From IMG/VR virus record IMGVR_UViG_3300022687_000023, positions 1 through 38,828 of that record: 38,828 bases of DNA. The stretch is one strand, 5' to 3'. Shown in pieces: positions 245 through 35,725 of the stretch. This DNA comes from a virus. Numbering within the stretch: the stretch's first letter is position 1; every line of letters starts with the position of its first letter. A program made the translations under genes and the position numbers. The notes beneath the pieces were generated by a model, which was given only the letters and a program-made list of their open reading frames with translations, did no database searches and was not told the origin of the DNA.

Positions 245-1372
245 CTATCCCAAATACCGAAATCCCTGCACCGCACGGAAGTGTCCGCCATAGCCGCCCT
301 TCGCGGCCGTCGCTTTCGCGCCCCCACGCTTGAGCTCCGACCGCAGAATAGATTGCCGGCATCTGACCTTGTTCTGCCCGTAGAGATGCGCACTGACCTG
401 GCACCAGCGAGGATCTCGCCTAAGGGCGGCCGCGAGGCCGGGGTGAGACGTGTGAAACAGAGTCGGCATCGGTCGGCCGTACCGGTTGCGTCCGCGCCGC
501 CAGCGGTCGCATACGGCGTTCAGGAAGCGCATTCCGACGCCAGCGCCCTGCCACTCCGGCATGATGACGAGGCGGCAGGCGCGCGCCTCCTTCAGCCCTG
601 GCCGCGTGCTGAATGCGACGTGGGCCACCGGGGTGCCATCCGCTAGTCCGACATAGTTGGTCGCCGCGATCATCTTCGGCAGCTTCAGATAGTGATGCGG
701 CTCAAACAGCGGCCAGTGCCGCCAATCGGTTTCGTGGATGGAGAGCCTGATATCGGGGCGTCGCCAAAGACCCCTCCCGGCATACTTGCCCGTCGCTGTG
801 TCCAGAACCCAATCCGGCTCCAGCCATTCGACGATGTCGTAATGGCACGAGAGCAAGACGCACTGCCCGCCAGTCCGGCGCCAGGCTTTCTGGAAGGCGA
901 GGGCGCCGATCTTTGCAATCTGGCGGTCGACTACGCTGGTGAACTCATCGACGACAATGCGCGCCGGCGCATCGCATACGATCCGCGCGAGATCCGCGCG
1001 GAACTTCTCGCCATTTGAGAGGGCGCTGTACGGCCGTAACCAGGCCGGGACCGATCCGAGGCCAACCGCAGAGAGCGCGGCGGTCACGGAATCAAAGTGG
1101 CCCGCCGGCGCAATCGCGTCGACGATCGGCCGGCGCTCCGGCCAGTCGCCCGGCCCGTAGAGTGCGCCGCCGCCCCAGAGCGCCCGGCCGATGCTTGACT
1201 TGCCGGAGCCGGATGGGCCGACCACAAGGCCGACGCGCCAGCCGTCATCGTCAATCGGCAACTCGACGTCCAGGTCGAAGTTGCAGCCGGTCTCGACGTT
1301 GAACAGGCTTTTGACCCTTGCGGCCCGATAGCTCTCAAAGTCCGAGCAACGATTCCTGATGCTGATCTTCAT
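245..1372 (-). CDS. ABC ATPase - GNAT fusion, Mom-like DNA-modification protein
   Basis: The protein has 375 aa from the ATG at 1372, whose ATGA overlaps the stop of the upstream ORF. Its N-terminal half is an ABC-type P-loop ATPase: Walker A GPSGSGKS (52-59), signature-like LSNGEK (118-123), Walker B IVVDE (139-143) and switch His177. Its C-terminal half is a GNAT-like acyltransferase: motif A around RLVIMPEWQGAGVG (267-280) and a conserved-looking end FRAVQGFRYL. Mu Mom is a GNAT-fold enzyme that makes a modified adenine; it has no ATPase domain. A Com homologue two genes upstream and the position at the phage right end support a Mom-type role in protecting DNA from restriction. The substrate and the task of the ATPase are unknown. 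Confidence 0.8.
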   Translation of the reverse strand: MKISIRNRCSDFESYRAARVKSLFNVETGCNFDLDVELPIDDDGWRVGLVVGPSGSGKSSIGRALWGGGALYGPGDWPERRPIVDAIAPAGHFDSVTAALSAVGLGSVPAWLRPYSALSNGEKFRADLARIVCDAPARIVVDEFTSVVDRQIAKIGALAFQKAWRRTGGQCVLLSCHYDIVEWLEPDWVLDTATGKYAGRGLWRRPDIRLSIHETDWRHWPLFEPHHYLKLPKMIAATNYVGLADGTPVAHVAFSTRPGLKEARACRLVIMPEWQGAGVGMRFLNAVCDRWRRGRNRYGRPMPTLFHTSHPGLAAALRRDPRWCQVSAHLYGQNKVRCRQSILRSELKRGGAKATAAKGGYGGHFRAVQGFRYLG

Positions 1373-1548
1373 GTGACCACCACCCGGCAATTGAAGCGCT
1401 GCTTTCTCAGAGCCGCATAGGTTCGGCGCTGGTCAGCCTCGTCACGGCAGATGACGATGACACCATACTGCTCGCGATAGCGATTGCCTTTTGGCCGGCC
1501 AGGTGCGCCGGCCGGGAGCTTGGGAAGTCTAGGGGGCTGCCTCTTCAT
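1369..1548 (-). CDS. 59-aa linker ORF of the com-mom operon
   Basis: This small basic protein lies between com and the ABC/GNAT gene. I chose the ATG at 1548 because GGAGAG lies about 6 nt upstream; a longer version from 1575 is possible. Its start overlaps the 3' end of com by 20 bases and its TGA overlaps the mom-like ATG (ATGA), so all three genes are probably translationally coupled. The N-terminus is Pro/Lys/Arg-rich (residues 1-24); the second half (about 28-59) looks like a short alpha/beta segment with VIVICRDE and RVVVT strands. I do not know the family. A nucleic-acid-binding accessory of the modification system is a guess from context. Confidence 0.6.
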   Translation of the reverse strand: MKRQPPRLPKLPAGAPGRPKGNRYREQYGVIVICRDEADQRRTYAALRKQRFNCRVVVT

Positions 1549-8304: not shown

Positions 8305-10245
8305 CTACACCAGGATGGCTTCGCCGCCGTCGCGGCGGTTGTCATTGATCTCCTGGATCAGCGCCTCGATGTCACTGGCGCCGAAGCTGCTGCCGTGCAG
8401 CGCAAAGTATTGTGTCGGCCCTGCCTGCTGCGCCGGTGCTCCGGGCGGCGAGCCCGCATAGGCGCCGGTGCCGACGGGCGAAGCGGCGCTCACCGCGCCG
8501 CCCTTCGAGCCGCTGTCGGAGCTGGCGATCTGAGCGACATAGGCGAGGCCGGTCGCAACCGTTGCCGCCGCCATGATCGGACCAATGATCGGCCCCAGCT
8601 CCAGCGCCTTGGCCGCGCCGCGATAGGTCGAGATCAAGGCATTCGTAATGCCGGCCGCCTTGTTGATCGCGCTCCACTTGTCGCTCTCGGCCGCGAGTGC
8701 GCCGGTGAATCCCTGTATCTGGCCGACGGTGCTTTGAAGGTCGGATGCCCATTGGTCGCGCATACTGCCGCTAGCTTCTGCGACGGCTCGGGCATAAAGC
8801 TCCCACGATATCGTGCCCGTCAGCACCGCATTGTCCAGGACAGCCAGCTGTTCGGCGAGCCGTTCGCTCTCGGTGCGCGTCTGGTCATAGAGGGAGCGGC
8901 GGAACTCGAAGGCTGCAAGGTCCTCCTCCTGGAACGCCTGAGCCTCCGCCCGCGCCTCAAGCAGGCTGCGCAGCGAAGCTTCTTCTTCAGCCGTCGCGAA
9001 TGCCAGCGCCTGGCGGTTCCGCACCATTTCGCGCTGGATCGGATCTGCTATCGAGAGGGCTTCGAGCTCCAGTTGAAGCCCTTCCAAAAGCCGGTCGAGG
9101 CTCTGACGGCCCGAGCGTGCTTCCGTCTCCGCGCGGCGCCGCGCTTCGTTCGCGCGTTCCTGCGCCTCGGTCTCCTGCTCGCGAACCGCCACCAGGCGCG
9201 CGATCTCCTGAGCCTCGAGCGCGGTCAAACCGGCCCCGGCGCGCTTGAGCTCAAGATCTATTTTTCGTTGGATCTCTGACTTGCCCAACGCCGCGATCTC
9301 GGCCTCGATTTGCGCGATGATGCCCTTGCCACCTATCTTGTTGAGAGCTTCGTTCGCGCTCTGAAGAGCCCGCTCGCTCAGCGAAGCCCCTTCCGTCATC
9401 TCCAAAAGAGCTTTGGCGGTCTCGCGCAGTTTCTCGTCTGCGGTCGTGTTCGCAATAGCGGTGACTCTGGCGCGGAAGGCTTCGACACTGGCATTGCCGG
9501 CCGTCACCGAAGCGATGAACTTTTCCATCTCTCCCTGGAACGCGGCGAATTCGGCAAATTGGCTTTCACCGACAACGCCCCGCGAGAAGTTGAGCGAGTC
9601 GCTGATGCCCAAAAGTTCTTCCGCGATGCCCCGGGTCTGTTCCCGGAGCTGCGCCCGCAGGTCGGCTGCCTCGCTCCCGGTCGAAAACTCCAATACCGAA
9701 CGGCTTTCCGCGGCGAAGGCCTTAACGTCCTTGGTGGCTTCGCCGTAAGCCTCCTTGATCCGCTTGATGATATCTTCATGGCTCTCAAGCAGGCCTTCCG
9801 CCTCGTCGCCGCCGCTGGAGACTTCGGTAAAGAATGTGCTGGCCGCGGCCGCGGCGATGCCGAAACCCAGAACGGCCAGATTGAGCGGGTTGAGGACGAA
9901 CGAGGCGATTGCCCCGCCGGTGGCCTTCAGGGCCGCGCCGACGGACGTGGTGCCCTTGGCGCCGAATATCTGGCTGATCTGGAGGCCTTGCTGGGCCATG
10001 ATCGTGAAGGGCGACTGGCCCGATGCCAGGCCGGTGGCAATATCGTTGATCTGGAACTGAAGATTCGTGATGTCATGCGTTGCCAGCCGAACGCCCTTGG
10101 ACGCTGCGGCCGCGCCGCTAGCCATTGCGGTGTTTGCCTTCGAGGCGCCGCCAGCGACGGCTTGCATGCCTTGCGAGGTATCGTCGAGGGCGCGCTTGGC
10201 GCCCCGCGCGTCGCCTTCTATGACAAGGGCAGTACGCAGCGTCAT
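8305..10245 (-). CDS. Tail length tape measure protein, 646 aa
   Basis: The N-terminal third has the typical tape measure signature (about 55-95): LQFQINDIATGLASGQSPFT followed by an MAQQGLQISQIFG segment. A hydrophobic stretch follows (about 110-140), then a long coiled coil (about 150-480) rich in Glu/Ala/Arg, then a small C-terminal domain with a second hydrophobic patch (about 545-575). It sits next to the tail assembly chaperone/DUF1799 pair as in lambda-like tails. At 646 aa it is short, predicting a short to medium tail if the usual residue-to-length relation holds. Confidence 0.9.
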   Translation of the reverse strand: MTLRTALVIEGDARGAKRALDDTSQGMQAVAGGASKANTAMASGAAAASKGVRLATHDITNLQFQINDIATGLASGQSPFTIMAQQGLQISQIFGAKGTTSVGAALKATGGAIASFVLNPLNLAVLGFGIAAAAASTFFTEVSSGGDEAEGLLESHEDIIKRIKEAYGEATKDVKAFAAESRSVLEFSTGSEAADLRAQLREQTRGIAEELLGISDSLNFSRGVVGESQFAEFAAFQGEMEKFIASVTAGNASVEAFRARVTAIANTTADEKLRETAKALLEMTEGASLSERALQSANEALNKIGGKGIIAQIEAEIAALGKSEIQRKIDLELKRAGAGLTALEAQEIARLVAVREQETEAQERANEARRRAETEARSGRQSLDRLLEGLQLELEALSIADPIQREMVRNRQALAFATAEEEASLRSLLEARAEAQAFQEEDLAAFEFRRSLYDQTRTESERLAEQLAVLDNAVLTGTISWELYARAVAEASGSMRDQWASDLQSTVGQIQGFTGALAAESDKWSAINKAAGITNALISTYRGAAKALELGPIIGPIMAAATVATGLAYVAQIASSDSGSKGGAVSAASPVGTGAYAGSPPGAPAQQAGPTQYFALHGSSFGASDIEALIQEINDNRRDGGEAILV

Positions 10246-10249
10246 GCTT

Positions 10250-10995
10250 CTATCCGCTCCGCACGCCGTTCAAAACATTGCGCGCCTCTGCCTCCATGAA
10301 GCGCACGCCGCGCCACAGGTCGGGTGTGACCGCGATGCCCTCCATCTCGAGACCGGCGCAAGCGGCGGCGTAGTCGAGCCCGTGAAACAGGATTGCCGAG
10401 CGGCCGTTCGCAATGACCGTGTCGGTTCGCCACTGCGTCGCGACCGCAAGGAAGGCAACGACGGTGTCGACGTTCTCCGGCCAGACGCCCGAATAGGAAG
10501 CATCGGCAGGCCCGAGAGACTGGGCGACCGCCGCAGCAACATTGTCTATAGCGGCATCTGAAAGTCCGAATCGCCGGGCGTCTGCGGTCGCTTCCGCACC
10601 GGCCTCGCGCTGTCGCGAAGGGCTGCTTTCGAGGCCGCCGGACGCCCACGCCCGAGCGGCCCATTTCAGTTTCCCTCCCGCGCGCCCGCGATGGAATCGA
10701 TGTAGGTGCGGATCAGTGCCGAGCGGCAGTCGGGTCGAGCTACGATCGCGTCGCGCAGTTCATCGGTGTAGGCGAGGGGCTTGCCCTGTGCATCGGCAAT
10801 GTCGCCGAGCTCGACGATGCATTCTCGAAGGAGATCCCTCACGCCCTCCGGCTGGCCCAGGTCGTGAGCTGCCATTTGGTCCGTCGTAAGCATTCGATAG
10901 GTGGCGGCCATAGTCTCCCGGCTATAACCGTCGTCCGTCGGGACCTTCACCGTCACCGTGCGCTTGAAGGTCGGACTGTCAGCAAGCTTCAGCAT
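10250..10995 (-). CDS. Tail assembly chaperone - DUF1799 fusion by -1 frameshift
   Basis: The frame after the chaperone stop encodes a DUF1799-like protein (VWPENVDTVVAFLAVATQW, GLDYAAACAGLEMEGI, TPDLWRGVRFMEAEARNVL) but has no ATG, GTG or TTG before the conserved VWPEN segment. It lies in the -1 frame relative to the chaperone. A slippery GGGAAAC (10675-10669) in the correct phase (G GGA AAC) precedes the TGA, and a 12-bp stem-loop follows after 7 nt. Slippage would give a 248-aa fusion (109 + 139 residues) ending at the TAG at 10250. This parallels lambda gpG/gpGT, where the extended product recruits tail tube subunits to the tape measure. Confidence 0.85.
10633..10675 (-). promoter_or_regulatory. 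Programmed -1 frameshift signal
   Basis: Read on the minus strand: GGGAAAC at 10675-10669, then the zero-frame stop TGA, a 7-nt spacer, and a stem-loop at 10661-10633. The stem is GGCCGC, bulged T, CGGGCG, loop TGGG, CGTCCG, GCGGCC: 12 pairs including one G-U. Slippery site, spacer and stem all have the layout of a -1 ribosomal frameshift signal; lambda uses GGGAAAG in the equivalent gene. Confidence 0.85.
10666..10995 (-). CDS. Tail assembly chaperone, short (zero-frame) form
   Basis: 109 aa. It follows the tail tube gene and precedes the tape measure, the place of lambda gpG. The N-terminus (MLKLADSPTFKRTVTVKVP) is beta-like, the rest helical, as in phage tail assembly chaperones. It ends at TGA 10668-10666 immediately after a GGGAAAC slippery heptamer, so it is probably the major product and the longer fusion the minor one. 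Confidence 0.85.
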   Translation of the reverse strand: MLKLADSPTFKRTVTVKVPTDDGYSRETMAATYRMLTTDQMAAHDLGQPEGVRDLLRECIVELGDIADAQGKPLAYTDELRDAIVARPDCRSALIRTYIDSIAGAREGN

Positions 10996-11010: not shown

Positions 11011-11949
11011 TCAGGTGAGCGCGATGGCAAACTGGTCATTGCCTGTGCTTGGCAGCGGCCGCAGGCGTAGCGGCCACTCCACCACATCGTCAGCATTCTC
11101 GTAGCCTTCGAGCCGTTGCATCTCGCAGGTTGGGGCGGTGACGGTGACGATGTTGCCGGCCTGCGTTCCATGCGTGATTGTCGCCTCGATTTCTTCCTTC
11201 GAGAGGGCGAGGGCGAAGGGGTTGAAGTCGTCGAGCGGCAACGCTTCCACCGTGGCGGTCATCAGCTCGGCCCGGTTGACGATCTTGATTTCGTCGCGGC
11301 CGATCAGAAGCCGGGGTGTCACCTCGTTGCCCAGGTCGAGGCTGAATGTCCGCAGGACCAGGTCGACCTCATCGATACTGAAGTCGGGGGTGTTGGTGCT
11401 GTTGGCGAGAAGCGGCTTCTGGAAGCCGGTGAGGGTCGGCGCGTCACGGGCCGTTTCGCTCGGCGCGTTCCACAGGCCCGTCAGCGTCCACTGGATGTTC
11501 GGCACGCCTTGGGCCGGGATCGTAAGGACGCCCGTGCCGCGAACTCCGGTGAGAACATGGAGCGTCTCCTCGATCCAGAAATAGATCGAGATGCTTTCGT
11601 GAGCATTTGTCACTGGGGCATAGCTTACGCTGGTGTCTGTAACGATGGTTTCGCCCAAGGCGCAAGCGCGCGCCAGCGGTCCCCATCCCGGGGCGGTGCC
11701 GGCGGCGCCCGAGCCGGCAAGCTCGGTTGCGCCGGTCAGCGCGCCACGCAGGCCGCCCGCCAGCGTTGCCTGGTTCCCGAGGTAGGGAAGCTCCAGCTCG
11801 CGGGCCACATCGTCGCCGTCCATCGGCGTGAAGCTGACATTCTGCATCAGAATCCCGTTGGCCGCTCCGGTCGGTTCCGAGTCGGTGCCGTACTCGGTCT
11901 CCATCTTCGCGAGGATGATCTTGGATCGCCATTTGAGCGCCTCGGCCAT
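11011..11949 (-). CDS. Major tail tube protein, 312 aa
   Basis: A beta-rich acidic protein without membrane segments or Cys clusters, placed immediately before the tail assembly chaperone. The N-terminus (MAEALKWRSKIILAKMETEYG) and the body with repeated short strands fit phage tail tube proteins of the siphovirus type. Its 312 aa are larger than the roughly 150-250 aa common for tube proteins, leaving room for an extra Ig-like domain. There is no contractile sheath gene anywhere in the window, consistent with a non-contractile tail. Confidence 0.8.
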   Translation of the reverse strand: MAEALKWRSKIILAKMETEYGTDSEPTGAANGILMQNVSFTPMDGDDVARELELPYLGNQATLAGGLRGALTGATELAGSGAAGTAPGWGPLARACALGETIVTDTSVSYAPVTNAHESISIYFWIEETLHVLTGVRGTGVLTIPAQGVPNIQWTLTGLWNAPSETARDAPTLTGFQKPLLANSTNTPDFSIDEVDLVLRTFSLDLGNEVTPRLLIGRDEIKIVNRAELMTATVEALPLDDFNPFALALSKEEIEATITHGTQAGNIVTVTAPTCEMQRLEGYENADDVVEWPLRLRPLPSTGNDQFAIALT

Positions 11950-13631: not shown

Positions 13632-13707
13632 TGGTTGCGGGGGCAGGAGTCGAACCTGCGGCCTCCGGATTATGAGTCCGGCGCTCTGACCTCTGAGCTA
13701 CCCCGCC
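13632..13707 (-). tRNA. tRNA with CAU anticodon (Met-type), unpaired G1/A72
   Basis: A complete cloverleaf with encoded CCA. Acceptor GGCGGGG / CCCCGCA, D-stem GCTC/GAGC, anticodon stem CCGGA/TCCGG with loop CTCATAA (anticodon CAU), variable AGGCC, T-arm GCAGG-TTCGACT-CCTGC, discriminator A. Six acceptor pairs form, but G1 and A72 do not pair, a feature of initiator tRNAs; the 3' strand CCCCGCAACCA equals that of E. coli tRNA-fMet. The C11:G24 pair and A31:U39 pair are elongator-like. It begins 8 nt after the stop of the upstream protein gene, so it is inside the late mRNA. Met elongator, Ile2 (lysidine) or an initiator-like hybrid remain possible. Confidence 0.9.
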
Positions 13708-17269: not shown

Positions 17270-20200
17270 TTATCTGCGCTCAACGAGAGCGGGCGATTGT
17301 GCTGTAACTACGTTAATTGCAGTCGCTCCCCGGAAGGTGAAGGCAAGGTTGAATGTAACGTCTTCATAGAGCTGTATATTTTCCCAAGCTTCATGAGCGC
17401 TGTTGTTTTCATGCGCGAAAATATTCCGACCGTGAATCGGGCTCGCGATGAACACGTAGCCGACTTCCTGCTTGACGACTTGACCCTTGAAGATCGAAAG
17501 TTCTCCATCCTGATCGGTCAAGGAGGCTTTGGTCTGCCTTTTCGCCGCTGGGGAAACGTCGGCATCCTGCAAGCTGTCAAATATACTGTCGCTGGTGGCA
17601 AAGTCGCCTGCACGAAATAGCTCGCGTCCATACCAGAGCTGAGCGTCATAATTGCTGTCGCCATTCGAAAAGCCCGAGCGGAAATGCTGTATCGCCGAAC
17701 TCCGCTCGGCGGCATCGGACGATTCTGCGTGAAGCATACCTAGTCGCCAGTGAGCTGTCTTTGCCGTTGGGTGCTCAGAAATGACCTTCCGCAAGACGCT
17801 CTTTGCGGAAGCAACGTCGCCGCCATCGAGATAGAGATCCGCCAATCTGACAGCGATCCACTCCTGCCGCGAATTTGCAGTGAAGGCCCTCTCCAAGGCA
17901 AGTTTAGCCTTGGGCTCGTCGCTTATCGCGGTTCGATAGTTCGCCTCGGTGGTCAAAATGTACTCATCGTTCGGAAATAGAATCCGACCAGTCGATATCT
18001 CGGCTTCAATTTCCTTCATGCGCTCTACAAGGACGCGATCCCGGCCGCCTTCCTCAGCCTCTTCTCGGAGATGATCTTTCAATTCATCCACCAGAACTTG
18101 CAATCTAGTGTTGACCGCGTAGGCATGCCGGCGAGAACCGGAACCAAGGCGGTGGAGTGAACGGTGGCGGTACTGCTTTCGAAGAAGCGGATTGGTTTCT
18201 TCTAGCGCCTTCTTCCGATAAAGGACCGCCATCGAATGCTGAATGCTGGCATCGTGCTCAGCAAGCTTTTCGGCATCTCCTAGAAGTGACTCAGCGCGTC
18301 TGAGGTTGCCACCGCCGTGGTTCATCTCGAATATCGCTTCCTGCTGAAGCACATACGGGTCATCCTGTCCGACCGCTTCGCGCGCGACTTTATAGAGTGA
18401 CCGACCCATTTCCACCGAGGGGAAGGCGTCGACCACGGCGCGCCCTCGCGTCAAATGATCAAACGCCTCCTTGTCCACGGAGAAGCTGATGTTCAGACCG
18501 CCCAAGATTCGCAGAATCTGATTCAGCATGTCTTCATGACTCGACAGCGTCTCAGAGAAAACAATCTCCGCGACGTGAGGGTGTCTGGCACGATACAAAC
18601 GGTCGCCGATATAGCGGTCGTATTCGCTATAGACAATCTTCTCAAGGGGCCGAAACAGCTCCTTCTCGAACTCATCGAAATGGATGTCGGATACTCTGGC
18701 GATCACACCCGCACGTACCGGGACGCCGAACCGGTTAAGGGTACAGACGTCAAGATAAAGGAGCTTCGCAGAGTCGGGCGTAATGCGGGCGTATTCGTCA
18801 GCGACGATCTCTTCGAAGGGGCGCCCGAGGGTTGCCTCATGGAGTGCTACGAGGATCTGTCGTTGCGCCCTGTCCTTAAATGCTCTCACACGATCATCGG
18901 GCTTCAAGTCCGCCAAAAGTCCCAAAGCTCGGTGGGTCTGTAGCTTTTCGAGGAGCTCGCCAATCTCCAAGTCCGAAAGGTAGCGAACCGGGTAGGAATT
19001 CACTACAAATTCCTCTAGAGCCTCGCAACGCGTGTTCCATTCGTTGTCGCGTTCAGCAGCGACGACGCTCAGTTGCACTTTCCGAGTCTGCATCTGTTTT
19101 AGAAACTGCGACAGTTCCGAGACGCGGAGCGATGGGCGATCGACAAATAGAAAGATGCGGCGATTGGTGATTTCGTAGATTTCCTGAAAATGATTGGCGC
19201 GAAGCGCGCCGACATCGGAAAGATAGAAAACCAACGCGTCATAGTCGGTGGCCGCGTCCCATGCCGTTCGCTTAAGTGCTGTGGTCTTACCGTTACCGGC
19301 TGCTCCCTTGAGCACGAAGAGTTCGACTGGCTTCCTAGATGCGGTTTCTTCCTCGAGGACAGCGTCAACGAGAATAGTGTCGGAAACCTTCCGGCGAACG
19401 TCCATCTTTGCCAGGATGCCTGCAAATCCGCGGTCATAGCCCTTGTAGTAGTCGACTGGCGCCACTTGCTCGACCGGCATGCCGGACCGGACATGAAGGA
19501 TGTCGGTAGTGAGATACTGCACCGTGGTGTCGCTGTAGGTGCGGTTGCCTAGTACACGGAAGCGATCGATCGAAGGTGCGTCGGAAGGATTGATTTTAGA
19601 AAGTTTGCGGTTATTGGCGGGAATTTGCTGATCCAACTCCTTGAGAAACGCTTCAAAGGTCGCCTTGATCGCGGTAATGCGATTGGCTTGCCAGTCACGG
19701 GCTTCGATTTCATCGAACGTGGGCGAGACTACATAATATTGCGGCCGTCTCTGGTTCGCATTGAACAGGTCGAAAAGCACCGTTTGTACGTTCGGATCGT
19801 CGATGGAATAGCCGCAAAAGATTATGGGGAATTCGTGTCCCATGCCTTTGAGCATATCGAATAACCGCGACCGGTGCCGCGCGAAGGTGACATACTGATC
19901 GGATGTTATGATCAGCGGGGCTTCAGGGTCGTTCGAGTGATGCAGGCATCCGTGCAGTTTGAGGAATTTAAGCGGGTTCTGAAATTTTTTCGCATCTCTC
20001 TCTACAAGCTGGTCATTCTTAATGAAGGGTACCAGCGTTTGCAGCGACTGCTTATTTGTTTGGTATGCGCGGTCGACGATGAGATCATAATTGGTGGTCG
20101 CGATAGCGTGCCAATGAAATTCCGGTATCAGCTGGTGGAAGTCGGCGGGAGAAAAATCGATAAAGACATCCCTGAGATACGATTGCATCAACAGCAGTCC

Positions 20201-20443
20201 AGCCTCCGAAACACAATACCGTGCTACGACAGCAAGCGACCGATCCTTGAGCTTGCCGCCAAGAAATTTATCAGAAAGCAGATCCCTCAGGTCGTCTCCC
20301 TTGGGAGCGCGGGTTTGCGGATTCGGATGCTTGGCACCTCTGGATGCCCCGGATCCTAGGAACAAGATTGCATTGCCTTCGCGCACGGCGTCGATGAGCG
20401 TCGGCGGAAGGTTTAGCGGCGTTTGGTTCAAAATCCCCCCCAT
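17270..20443 (-). CDS. SIR2 - P-loop NTPase - TPR-like - cold-shock-like defence protein
   Basis: 1057 aa from the ATG at 20443 (a TTG at 20482 would add 13). SIR2-like domain, about 10-270: FLGSGAS (28-34), TTNYD with Asn118, KLHG with His164, GYSIDDPN (211-218), the usual NADase residues. P-loop domain from about 330: GAAGNGKT (380-387) and IFLFVD with Asp435. A long helical, TPR-like part follows (about 690-970). The end (987-1046) has a cold-shock/OB pattern: GYVFI, NIFAHE, VTFNL, RGATAINV. SIR2-STAND proteins such as Avs5 sense phage and deplete NAD; a defence role is inferred. Sampled 60-base lines are 40-47% GC against about 70% nearby, so it is recently acquired cargo in the late operon. 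No partner gene is seen. Confidence 0.85.
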   Translation of the reverse strand: MGGILNQTPLNLPPTLIDAVREGNAILFLGSGASRGAKHPNPQTRAPKGDDLRDLLSDKFLGGKLKDRSLAVVARYCVSEAGLLLMQSYLRDVFIDFSPADFHQLIPEFHWHAIATTNYDLIVDRAYQTNKQSLQTLVPFIKNDQLVERDAKKFQNPLKFLKLHGCLHHSNDPEAPLIITSDQYVTFARHRSRLFDMLKGMGHEFPIIFCGYSIDDPNVQTVLFDLFNANQRRPQYYVVSPTFDEIEARDWQANRITAIKATFEAFLKELDQQIPANNRKLSKINPSDAPSIDRFRVLGNRTYSDTTVQYLTTDILHVRSGMPVEQVAPVDYYKGYDRGFAGILAKMDVRRKVSDTILVDAVLEEETASRKPVELFVLKGAAGNGKTTALKRTAWDAATDYDALVFYLSDVGALRANHFQEIYEITNRRIFLFVDRPSLRVSELSQFLKQMQTRKVQLSVVAAERDNEWNTRCEALEEFVVNSYPVRYLSDLEIGELLEKLQTHRALGLLADLKPDDRVRAFKDRAQRQILVALHEATLGRPFEEIVADEYARITPDSAKLLYLDVCTLNRFGVPVRAGVIARVSDIHFDEFEKELFRPLEKIVYSEYDRYIGDRLYRARHPHVAEIVFSETLSSHEDMLNQILRILGGLNISFSVDKEAFDHLTRGRAVVDAFPSVEMGRSLYKVAREAVGQDDPYVLQQEAIFEMNHGGGNLRRAESLLGDAEKLAEHDASIQHSMAVLYRKKALEETNPLLRKQYRHRSLHRLGSGSRRHAYAVNTRLQVLVDELKDHLREEAEEGGRDRVLVERMKEIEAEISTGRILFPNDEYILTTEANYRTAISDEPKAKLALERAFTANSRQEWIAVRLADLYLDGGDVASAKSVLRKVISEHPTAKTAHWRLGMLHAESSDAAERSSAIQHFRSGFSNGDSNYDAQLWYGRELFRAGDFATSDSIFDSLQDADVSPAAKRQTKASLTDQDGELSIFKGQVVKQEVGYVFIASPIHGRNIFAHENNSAHEAWENIQLYEDVTFNLAFTFRGATAINVVTAQSPALVERR

Positions 20444-20635
20444 AGCCGAAAAGTCGAACAGCAACTCTAGTTTTGAATTCAAAGCAGAGTAATGCGCCTC
20501 GCCTCGTATTAAAATCGATTTTGAAGGGGCTTAAAAGCCCGTCGAAGGGCTCAAAAGTCTTTCGTGGGCCCTGGACACTAGCCAAGGTCGGCAGACGGTC
20601 TCTAAGGATCTGTGACGATCGCCGCTGGAGTGGGC
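20444..20635 (-). promoter_or_regulatory. AT-rich region upstream of SIR2 cargo gene, with hairpin
   Basis: The stop of gpF and the cargo gene start are about 190 bases apart, unlike the overlapping genes around. GGGCT (20527-20531) and AGCCC (20536-20540) form a short hairpin that could end the gpF transcript. Downstream on the minus strand lies an AT-rich stretch with a -10-like TAATAC near 20510. This suggests a private promoter for the cargo gene, but no strong -35 is seen. Confidence 0.35.
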
Positions 20636-32186: not shown

Positions 32187-32452
32187 GACGCAGTACCTCC
32201 AAGCGATGCCAGCCGCCGCACAGGCAGGCGGATGACGTTTCCATTGGCATTGAGGGATTGCTGGGCGGCGCGGGAGCGCTCGCCGAGGGTTTGCTCCAGG
32301 GCACGGGCGTCTTCAGCGGCAGCCAGCGCCCATTCGCGCAGGGCGAGCGTCGCGACCTCGTCCATGACGAGGCCGCCGTTGCCGTAGCGGACGAGGAAGT
32401 CCGCCAGTTCGTCGAGCCGCCCGCTCAGGGGATCGGCCTCGCGCGCGCTCAT
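32183..32452 (-). CDS. Hypothetical protein, 89 aa
   Basis: A helical protein (about 10-65) with a basic Leu/Arg end, linked by ATGA overlaps to the MuB-like gene upstream and the DnaA-like gene downstream. Unrecognised. Confidence 0.65.
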   Translation of the reverse strand: MSAREADPLSGRLDELADFLVRYGNGGLVMDEVATLALREWALAAAEDARALEQTLGERSRAAQQSLNANGNVIRLPVRRLASLGGTAS

Positions 32453-33765
32453 TGCAGCGTCTCCGCGCCGCGGTTCTCCCAGGCGGTCCGGATGTCTTTT
32501 GCCTCGATCGCGCGATCCTCGCCGCGCGCATACATGCCGGCGAGCTGCATCGTCTTGGTGATCTGGGAGAGGGCGCCCGGCTTCTTGCCAATCACGCGCA
32601 ACAGGGCGCGTATGTTCTTGTCTTCAACGCCCCACGCATCGATGAGGGCGCTTATGTCGCCCTCAAGCGGCTCACGGCGCAGCACGCGCTTGCCGATGCG
32701 GCGATGGATCTGGGCGTAGGCGGGACTCGGCCGCTGCCCGCCGAACCGGCCATACAGTTCCTCGTTGCCGATCAGGGCAATCCCGACGCCGTAGATGTCG
32801 AGATAGTGGCGGAGCTGATTGACGGCGTCGTCCTGGAGGTTCTGCGCTTCGTCGATGATCAGGAGGGTCTGCCGGCCGTTGCGCTTCAGCGCATCGCCAA
32901 GGGCACTGTCCATCCGCGCAGGATCGCGCTCATGCACGTCGAGCACGCGCGCGAGTTCCTTGATCATGTTGTAGACGCCCTTGGTGGTCGGACGCATGGT
33001 CGCGACATAGGCGTGAGGATTTGTCCGCCGGTAATGCTCGACGGTCATGCTCTTGCCCATGCCGGCGCCGAGCGTGACGATCACCATCTCCGACATCACT
33101 TGCGCATAGAGCAGTGCGTCGATGATCTGCTTGGCGGTGGGTGTTTCGATGAAGCCGGGTGCGGTGGGCACCTTGGCGGCTGCTTCCGTCATCTGCCGCA
33201 GCGAGTTCAGCCAATGCTCGATGCGGTCGGAGACGTTTTTGATGACGCCCTTGTAGACCCCGTCATACCAGCCCGAGAACGTCCCGCCGGGCACGTCGGA
33301 CCGGCGGGAAACTTCGGCCTTGGAGAACTGATGCTCTTCGGCAACGACGCGGCATTCCTCGGTCAGCCGCTCCCACCGCTCCAGCTCTGTATCGGGCAGG
33401 TCGGGCTTGGCCTTGGGAAGCGCCCAGGCCTCCCATTTGTTGCCGCCGCCATTCACCTTGGCCGGCGCCGCCGCCTCGCGCGCAGCGATCCTGACGTCCG
33501 GATCGTCCAGAAATGTCTTTATGCGTGCGTTCAGCGTGGCGAAGCGCCCCGCATAGCGCCCGTTGTACCATTCCGAGAAAGACGCCGAAGCCTCTCCCGA
33601 CTGGCGGGCGAATTCCGTCTTGCTCCAGTCCTTCTGCGCGGCAAGCACAGCTGCGCGTACCGTCAGAGCGCGCCAATCGGCCACGTCTTCGTTCGTCGTG
33701 ACACCGTTGGGCTCGGGTTCCCGCGCGGGAGCCCCCCAGGTGCCATAGCCTTTCACTGATTTCAT
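32449..33765 (-). CDS. B: MuB-like transposition ATPase with two N-terminal HTH domains
   Basis: 438 aa; Mu B is 312. AAA+ part: Walker A LGAGMGKSMT (about 232-241), Walker B LLIIDEAQNL with Asp305-Glu306, sensor region LIGNEELYGRF. It activates the transposase and delivers target DNA. The N-terminal part has two alignable HTH units: about 30-88 (DWRALTVRAAVLAAQKDWSK ... FSEWYNGRYAG) and about 129-188 (ERWERLTEECRVVAEEHQFS ... FSGWYDGVYKG). One copy is usual in MuB. GGAG lies 9 nt before the ATG. Confidence 0.9.
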   Translation of the reverse strand: MKSVKGYGTWGAPAREPEPNGVTTNEDVADWRALTVRAAVLAAQKDWSKTEFARQSGEASASFSEWYNGRYAGRFATLNARIKTFLDDPDVRIAAREAAAPAKVNGGGNKWEAWALPKAKPDLPDTELERWERLTEECRVVAEEHQFSKAEVSRRSDVPGGTFSGWYDGVYKGVIKNVSDRIEHWLNSLRQMTEAAAKVPTAPGFIETPTAKQIIDALLYAQVMSEMVIVTLGAGMGKSMTVEHYRRTNPHAYVATMRPTTKGVYNMIKELARVLDVHERDPARMDSALGDALKRNGRQTLLIIDEAQNLQDDAVNQLRHYLDIYGVGIALIGNEELYGRFGGQRPSPAYAQIHRRIGKRVLRREPLEGDISALIDAWGVEDKNIRALLRVIGKKPGALSQITKTMQLAGMYARGEDRAIEAKDIRTAWENRGAETLQ

Positions 33766-33799
33766 TTTGCCAGTCTCCGTGTCTCGGGCGGCCTACGCG

Positions 33800-35725
33800 C
33801 TACGAGTCGGTGCCTTCTTGGTTGCGTGGAAAACGCAGTACATCCGTGTCGCCGGCGAGAGAGCGAATGGCCCTGCCAAAGCTCTCCTCGGCTTGATCCT
33901 GATCGGCGCGCGGCGGGGCGGGGGCATTGACCGCCAGCTTCACCACGCGCGGGTGTTCGGGGAATTTGGTCGCCTCGGCCGCGGGCAGCATTGCCGCGAC
34001 CTGATCGATGGTCATGCGGCGCTCCAGCTCGAGGCATTCGCGCTGCTTCTTGAGCCAGAGCCGCTTGGCCCTCGCATGCTCGCGCGCCGCCTCGATATCG
34101 TCGAACCCGGTCGCCGCAATGCAGGCGGCGTCGCAGATGTAACGCCCGTCGCGGGAGTAGACAGAGACGCCGCCGATCAGGTTCTGCGGGTCGAATCGAA
34201 CGATAAGCTTCGTCCCGATACGCTCGACAAGGGGATCGGCCCAATAGCGGTTGCCGGCGAGCTGGATTTCCCCTGTGGGTTTGCGCGCCGAGACGCCTTC
34301 CGCGGCCATCAGGAACAGGCGGAGTTGAGCGGCGGTGGCTCTCGTGACCATCGTCGCCGGCGCTTCCATGCTGGCCTTGAAGACGTCCGCGAAAGATCGA
34401 CCCCGCGCCAGCGTGGAACGGCGACCCTCGCGCATGTTGTGCCGTTTGATTTCCTCGGCGACGAGGGCGCGGAAGTCTTCGATCGGCACCGCCTTGCTGC
34501 GGTAGTTGGCGGGCTTGGCGTCAGGCTTGTTGCCTGTGTAGGCACCCGCACATGCCGGGTGCTTGGCGATCTCCTCGCACATGTCGCGGAAGGCGCGCTC
34601 GATGGGCTTGGCCTGGCCGTGATAGGGCGTCGTCCAGTGCACCTTGATGCCGAGACGCGTCAGCAGGCCTTCCGGCTCGTCGTCCTTCACCTTGAAACGG
34701 AACCGGGTCTTCATGCCGCCGGTCAGCCATTTCGAGGCGAAGTTGCGGCCATTGTCGAACCAGACGCGCTCCGGGATGCCGAAGCTTTCCATCATGTCGG
34801 CGAAGGCGTGCCGAACGACCGACCAGTTCTCGGTCCGGTCAATCCGGTGCCCGACGATCATTCCGGAATGGAGGTCCTGAATGGCCACCATGACGGGGCG
34901 CCCAATCTCTCCGTCTTCCCACTTCACGAACACATCGAAGCGGTGCCCGTCGGCGTTGACCGCCTGCATTGCATGAAAGGTGGAGCGGTCGCGGGTCTGG
35001 TGCGGGAAGACCTGGGCGGCACTGTCCCTGCCGCCTCGCGCCAGCGTTCGCGCACCGCGGGGCACTTCGCGCTCCAATCGCCGCTTAAGCGTCTTGGATG
35101 ACGGGACAGGCGACCACCCATGTTCTTCGGCCGCGTCTTCCAGACGGCGATAGCAGGCAATGAAGGAAGGTTGCTCGGGGCGCAGATAATCCGCCTTGAG
35201 GAATTCCCAGGCGCGGGGGTCGCACTGCGCCGTCTTGGTGCGCCCCTGATAGCGTGGCGCAAGCGCGGGCTCCCAATCGTTGCGAGGCAGGCCTTCGACA
35301 AGCGCCCGCCAGTTCCAGAGCGTTCCCGTGCTGACGCTGCTTCGCTTTGCGACGAGGGCGACCGCTGTCGTTGCGTCCATTCCGCCCGCCAGCAGATCCG
35401 CGACCTGGACGACTGCGGCGAGGCGGGTCCGTGCCGCCTTCTTGGCCTTCTCGGGCAGTGCCTCGAATTTTTGCCAGAGGCATTCTCGCTGCCCGTCGTC
35501 AGGTTCGCTTGCTCCATCTGCTGCGAGCAGGGTCGCCTGCGTTTCGGGCGGGAGAATCGAATAGTGGTATTCCCATCCGCCGCCGCGGCCTTCGCGTGCC
35601 CGTGCCTTGCCGGGCACCTCGCGCCAGCCATGCCGCTCGATGTGCCGAGAGAGTGCGCCCTTGTCGGTTGGCAACGCCGGGCTGCGCAGCGCAAGCAACT
35701 CGGCTGATGTCACCCAGCGGCTCAT
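33800..35725 (-). CDS. A: MuA-type DDE transposase
   Basis: 641 aa, close to MuA (663). Order: Mu-type end/enhancer-binding HTH (about 1-65), site-binding helical domains (about 80-225), RNase H catalytic core with Asp259 (AVNADGHRFDV), Asp324 (VWFDNGRNFASKWLTGG) and Glu376 (GQAKPIERAF), the three residues matching MuA D269, D336, E392; beta-barrel and C-terminal tail that contacts MuB and ClpX. It inserts and replicates the phage by transposition. Confidence 0.95.
   Translation of the reverse strand: MSRWVTSAELLALRSPALPTDKGALSRHIERHGWREVPGKARAREGRGGGWEYHYSILPPETQATLLAADGASEPDDGQRECLWQKFEALPEKAKKAARTRLAAVVQVADLLAGGMDATTAVALVAKRSSVSTGTLWNWRALVEGLPRNDWEPALAPRYQGRTKTAQCDPRAWEFLKADYLRPEQPSFIACYRRLEDAAEEHGWSPVPSSKTLKRRLEREVPRGARTLARGGRDSAAQVFPHQTRDRSTFHAMQAVNADGHRFDVFVKWEDGEIGRPVMVAIQDLHSGMIVGHRIDRTENWSVVRHAFADMMESFGIPERVWFDNGRNFASKWLTGGMKTRFRFKVKDDEPEGLLTRLGIKVHWTTPYHGQAKPIERAFRDMCEEIAKHPACAGAYTGNKPDAKPANYRSKAVPIEDFRALVAEEIKRHNMREGRRSTLARGRSFADVFKASMEAPATMVTRATAAQLRLFLMAAEGVSARKPTGEIQLAGNRYWADPLVERIGTKLIVRFDPQNLIGGVSVYSRDGRYICDAACIAATGFDDIEAAREHARAKRLWLKKQRECLELERRMTIDQVAAMLPAAEATKFPEHPRVVKLAVNAPAPPRADQDQAEESFGRAIRSLAGDTDVLRFPRNQEGTDS

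Follow-up and report, generated by a model that had tools for sequence, protein, structure and literature searches.

The window analysed here is a 38,828-nt stretch of viral DNA, taken at its full length, in which siphophage-like tail genes lie on the minus strand. Two overlapping open reading frames sit between the gene for a tail tube protein (Phage_tube_2 in Pfam; 11011–11949) and that for a tape measure protein (TMP_2 in Pfam; 8305–10245), all on the minus strand. The first frame directly follows the tail tube gene and encodes a G-like tail assembly chaperone of 109 aa (10995–10666), the 3′ end of which reads GAG GGA AAC TGA. The heptamer G GGA AAC (10675–10669) lies in the phase required for a tandem −1 slip and is followed directly by the zero-frame TGA stop (10668–10666). 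The −1 frame, T (10669–10250), comprises 139 aa, ends with a stop at 10252–10250 directly upstream of the tape measure gene, and together with G would form a fusion of 248 aa. Downstream of the heptamer the RNA can fold into a stem–loop (10662–10632, minus strand) with a 5′ arm at 10662–10649 that contains a bulged U at 10655, a loop at 10648–10645 and a 3′ arm at 10644–10632. The slippery GGGAAAC just before the stop and the 248-aa product had both been proposed in a preliminary description of this DNA, and both are borne out by the reading frames.

Coding frames and protein families

The T frame matches the DUF1799 domain (PF08809) over residues 61–131 (10277–10489, minus strand) with an E-value of 1.7e-11 and 44.6 bits (cutoff 26), and members of the T family match DUF1799 at E ≤ 1 in 43 of 43 cases. 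The G protein of the window matches PHROG 569 (tail) with an E-value of 2e-14, as do 36 of 36 members of its family. Its match to Phage_TAC_4 (PF08748; E 0.011, 16.4 bits) falls below the cutoff of 21.1, and 13 of the 36 family members match this entry at E ≤ 0.01. G is consequently described as TAC_4-like and is not filed as a Phage_TAC_4 member.

AlphaFold models of G and T each have a pLDDT of 90.7. The first row of the fold search with the G model is 3klu (YqbN; Z 4.8, rmsd 4.6, 84 aligned) and the third is 2ob9_B (HK97 chaperone; Z 3.2, rmsd 5.4, 81 aligned), both Z scores being low; Foldseek gave no match for this model at E ≤ 0.001. The weak likeness of the modelled G to YqbN and the HK97 chaperone fits a chaperone role. 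No convincing match was obtained in the fold search with the T model. The C-terminal half of T, when represented by family alignments (A3 and A4), gave a profile match to ribosomal protein bL20 (E 2e-4 to 6e-4), and T was considered as a bL20-like RNA binder. This candidate was rejected, as the single window protein has no such match, L20 is absent among the Pfam families of the members and among the listed Foldseek rows (n = 50), and the T model has a β-hairpin in this region.

The first ATG, GTG or TTG in the T frame after its upstream stop is found 323 nt past the G stop. As the DUF1799 domain begins earlier, approximately 180 nt after the heptamer, this codon lies inside the domain, which would be cut, and cannot serve as a start for the whole domain. 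The description of a DUF1799-like coding frame that lacks a start codon was therefore correct. A DUF1799 protein made from its own start had been named as an outcome that would count against a fusion, and the window offers no usable T start. The absence of a T start is not universal, relatives often having a start codon before the junction or closely after it.

Codon usage, scored with eleven window genes as the reference, gives +26 bits for the 139 codons of the T frame and +31 bits for the 109 codons of G, with −73 bits when the G frame is continued beyond its stop. The third frame contains a long open frame of 140 codons (10664–10242, minus strand) whose ATG at 10664 is well spaced from a Shine–Dalgarno-like GGAGG stretch, and this could be taken for a real gene in place of T. 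Its codon usage, however, scores −97 bits over the 140 codons, it has no Pfam or PHROG match, and its ATG is missing from many relatives. Differences between related loci (57 pairs) fall mostly on the third positions of the T frame (47% of differences). A third-frame gene at this position is thus extremely improbable.

The heptamer and its adjacent stop in related loci

Few known phage relatives were retrieved when the window's own proteins were used as queries, and two single-protein scans of viral contigs gave no matches. An alignment-based scan succeeded, yielding 80 viral loci, and a DNA-pattern search yielded a further 37, a set biased towards the pattern used to find it. Family searches, which do not share this bias, covered genomes from the order and from the phylum of a Roseobacter relative and recovered 22 of 390 and 30 of 398, respectively. 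Among the 80 loci from the alignment search, 79 contain both parts and 77 an in-phase heptamer, the misses being L021, in which the junction including the heptamer is missing, L038, in which the junction is unreadable and T is apparently in the other frame, and L077, a fragment; the stop directly adjoins the heptamer at 69. Both G and T are recognisable in L021, where the loss of the junction reflects either a deletion or an assembly fault.

The pattern loci are paired in 36 of 37 cases, L106 being a fragment. The order-survey set comprises 23 loci (L122 coincides with L004), 22 of which are paired, with no T match in L143; the heptamer is present at 22/22 and the adjacent stop at 20/22. Similarly, 26 of the 27 further loci fetched from the phylum survey have T (L171 gave no T match), with an in-phase heptamer at 26/26, one of them AAAAAAG, and an adjacent stop at 22/26. 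The surveyed heptamers are nearly always (G/A)3AAAC. AAC is used at 124 of the 125 non-redundant loci, and L164, with its stop 18 nt away, is the sole AAAAAAG locus. T is in the −1 frame at 139 of the 140 paired loci L002–L144. Sixteen named phages were picked for diversity among the matches listed and thus do not represent a random sample. In every one of them GGGAAAC or AAAAAAC directly abuts the stop; their sources are E. coli, Cronobacter, Serratia, Stenotrophomonas, Pseudomonas, Aeromonas, Variovorax, Vibrio, Synechococcus, Rhodobacter and Thiobacimonas.

With the amino acids fixed and local codon usage taken into account, perfect heptamers would be expected by chance at about 2 of 84 loci, a set that is limited to loci with a heptamer and is to be read beside the misses L021, L038 and L077. 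Lack of the slippery site in close relatives had been proposed as evidence against frameshifting, and the relatives keep the heptamer. The recurrence of the same arrangement across many independent records also argues against transcriptional slippage, or a sequencing error or indel, in place of ribosomal slippage. Six A in a row in some relatives would suit a slipping polymerase, but the homopolymers of GGGAAAC are generally regarded as too short for this, and such an origin is scarcely credible.

The adjacent stop had been described as unusually clean. It is instead the norm of the family, a stop directly after the heptamer being found at 116 of 125 non-redundant loci. For the loci not fetched by pattern alone (n = 61) an adjacent stop is observed at 56 with 22.4 expected, and for the order survey alone (n = 21) at 19 with 7.9 expected, although the loci share ancestry and the P values of these tests are too small. 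Where the second residue of T is Arg and the stop is adjacent (unbiased set), the codon is AGA or AGG in 13 of 13 cases, compared with 8% in the remainder of these genes; CGC is used at the two loci that have Arg at this residue and a distant stop. This bias is adjacency restated, because AGR is needed to complete the overlap with the stop.

On a tree of the 125 T proteins (a quick tree, its branch support not inspected) the minimum number of changes is 6 for adjacency, 12 for GGG/AAA and 29 for the identity of the stop. Adjacency thus persists while the identity of the stop changes at least 29 times, and it is the position of the stop that is kept. Avoidance of a start codon, whereby C as base Z of the heptamer would keep Z and the following TG from forming ATG, GTG or TTG, was considered and rejected, as C occupies Z also at loci with a TAA or TAG stop or with a more distant one. 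The AAAAAAG locus L164 was considered under the same idea, and there the stop is the distant one.

A search restricted to the full text of open papers, in the portions available, found no statement that an adjacent stop is the rule for this family. Zero stop distance has been remarked for single cases, KL1 and Loki, in excerpts of the respective papers (PMC3483164; PMC5313236), and the mean heptamer-to-stop distance in two sets is given as 26 and 36 nt in an extract of PMC10885494. The adjacent stop is nearly always present in the T1/DUF1799 family, a near-rule that we have not found stated in the open papers searched and into which the isolated remarks of genome papers can now be gathered. 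An adjacent stop also occurs outside DUF1799, as the T part of KL1 belongs to another family.

The identity of these stops bears on a further possibility, that T is a separate protein produced by termination–reinitiation at a CUG overlapping the TGA, or from a later start. A GGAGG stretch is found just upstream in the window, the annotation of Rhodobacter phage RC1 starts T at the overlapping CUG, and T has a start of its own in most of the named records inspected. Against this, TAA or TAG is used in 30 of the 116 adjacent-stop rows, which makes the overlapping codon CUA and not a start, the T frame of the window has no ATG, GTG or TTG before +323 nt, and reinitiation leaves the conserved in-phase heptamer unexplained. 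Separate synthesis of T is accordingly considered highly unlikely.

Of the 16 records of named phages that were compared, two (Smarc2 and the T1-like Silvanus) annotate the joined product expected from frameshifting. The records of L177, L173, L175, L179, L180 and L002 place the start of T downstream or at a CUG despite an AAAC-stop junction. What would be a clean and conserved example of a textbook mechanism lies in a group whose named records, as far as inspected, mostly misplace the start of T or give it one of its own.

The downstream stem

The stem of the window consists of 12 pairs and a closing G.U, with one bulged U and a UGGG loop (−24.6 kcal/mol), in agreement with the 12-bp stem, single bulge and 4-nt loop described previously. 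The spacer between the heptamer and the stem, given there as 7 nt, has this length if the G.U is left out and is 6 nt if it is counted. The stem is more stable than shuffled sequences (z −3.0; equally stable in 0 of 200) and than synonymous recodings of the window (z −2.0, p 0.035). Across 84 non-redundant loci the mean z against synonymous recoding is −1.29, with p < 0.05 at 33; some of the 84 loci have no excess stability over synonymous recoding.

When the synonymous-null test is slid over both genes, excess stability is confined to the position that immediately follows the heptamer (mean z −1.08 for the 84 loci), the remaining 41 positions giving mean z values of −0.43 to +0.13. The favoured pairing register (i+j=41) exceeds the synonymous null (z 4.5). 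A conserved stem shape was considered and rejected, as the window's register of 44/45, shifted by 3–4, is not above the synonymous null (z about 1.1–1.2). Selection acts on the presence of a stem and not on the exact stem of the window. The conservation anticipated in related phages consequently holds for a stem at that place, but not for the 12-bp stem itself.

Relation to known systems and proposed mechanism

Frameshifting by −1 in tail chaperone genes is described as classical in an excerpt of PMC5009743. The locus in the window is, judged from its sequence, very probably a −1 programmed ribosomal frameshift cassette for a tail assembly chaperone G/GT of the T1 type, with a TAC_4-like G and a DUF1799 T. 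The G and T proteins of coliphage T1 (ST40/ST39) match the window-family profiles in a four-protein search (3e-13 and 3e-17). T1 G is a TAC_4 protein and T1 T a DUF1799 protein, and T1 shares with the window an AAAC heptamer, a directly adjacent stop and the gene order tube–G–T–tape measure. The junction is AAAAAAC-TAA in T1 and GGGAAAC-TGA in the window. The T1 record (NC_005833) gives T as a separate short gene. For Stevie, one of the T1-like phages (Drexlerviridae), a conserved translational frameshift is described (PMC4319613).

The G/GT genes of lambda resemble those of the window in position, in the −1 shift, in the GGGAAA of the heptamer and in the role expected. However, the lambda heptamer is GGGAAAG with a stop 15 nt later, lambda T belongs to PF06223 and not to DUF1799, and neither lambda G nor T has similarity to the window-family profiles. 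The window cassette thus appears homologous to that of T1 and not detectably to lambda G/T. The earlier comparison with lambda holds as far as the G/GT reading is concerned, but the nearest homologue found is T1.

From the parts of the cassette, their conservation and the selection on them we infer that the majority of ribosomes would terminate at the TGA, with the 109-aa G as their product. A smaller share would slip back by one base on G GGA AAC, aided by the stem–loop 6–7 nt downstream, and would continue in the T frame to give the 248-aa GT as a putative minor product. By analogy with lambda, G may coat the tape measure and GT may recruit tube subunits. The prediction of a defined product ratio, made previously, goes beyond the sequence evidence. 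Several points count against the mechanism. On A_AAA_AAC the ribosomes of E. coli shift much less readily than on ..AAG (extract of PMC5009743), yet the heptamers of this family end in AAC at 124 of 125 loci. In addition, the stem of the window is outside the favoured register, excess stability is absent at some loci, L021 lacks the heptamer and the junction of L038 is unreadable.

The same placement of heptamer and stop is found elsewhere. Burkholderia phage KL1 has, at gp18/gp19, GGGAAAC immediately upstream of TGA as in the window (PMC3483164, in the section available), its T part being Phage_TAC_18 (PF23812) where that of the window is DUF1799. In Acinetobacter phage Loki (gp12/gp13) AAAAAAC adjoins the stop, according to a portion of PMC5313236, a likeness of arrangement. 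A stop follows the heptamer as an 'intercodon' in Rous sarcoma virus and barley yellow dwarf virus, but these are eukaryotic viruses. An HIV-1 site with an engineered stop has the same stop placement as the window, and in the excerpt of a bacterial test of the HIV-1 slippery sequence the stop lowered shifting, which extra RF2 abolished (PMC4373837). This result suggests that the G:GT ratio may depend on release factor.

It is therefore possible, though doubtful, that the adjacent stop makes the slip compete with release factor; reading it as a clean ending of G has equal standing. With similar reserve, the T1/DUF1799 chaperones might represent a class of bacterial −1 site with the stop as a working part, in which a weakly slippery XXXAAAC and a zero-distance stop would leave the G:GT ratio to a race between slippage and release factor. 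Tail assembly would then respond to release-factor supply. With an adjacent stop so nearly invariant, T1 offers a natural bacterial −1 site at which competition by release factor can be tested directly.

Several other features of the window were observed. A Mu-type transposase (PF02914) and Mu B are encoded at 32449–35725 (minus strand) and a Mu portal gene is also present, and the virus resembles a transposable phage that carries siphophage-like tail genes. For Mu-like P. aeruginosa phages a different site, TTTTTTC, is proposed in an extract of PMC4378225. In the part of the VarioGold paper available the DUF1799 protein is a separate gene and frameshifting is not mentioned (PMC9658991). Within the head-gene block a gene of 1070 aa (17270–20482, minus strand) has SIR2-like, STAND NTPase and TPR parts and is similar to proteins of anti-phage defence, ThsA and Dsr2 among them. 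A gene for tRNA-Met (anticodon CAT; 13632–13707, minus strand) lies amid structural genes. Finally, a single open reading frame at 245–1390 (minus strand) combines a weak ABC-ATPase match, below the cutoff, with a GNAT acetyltransferase match.
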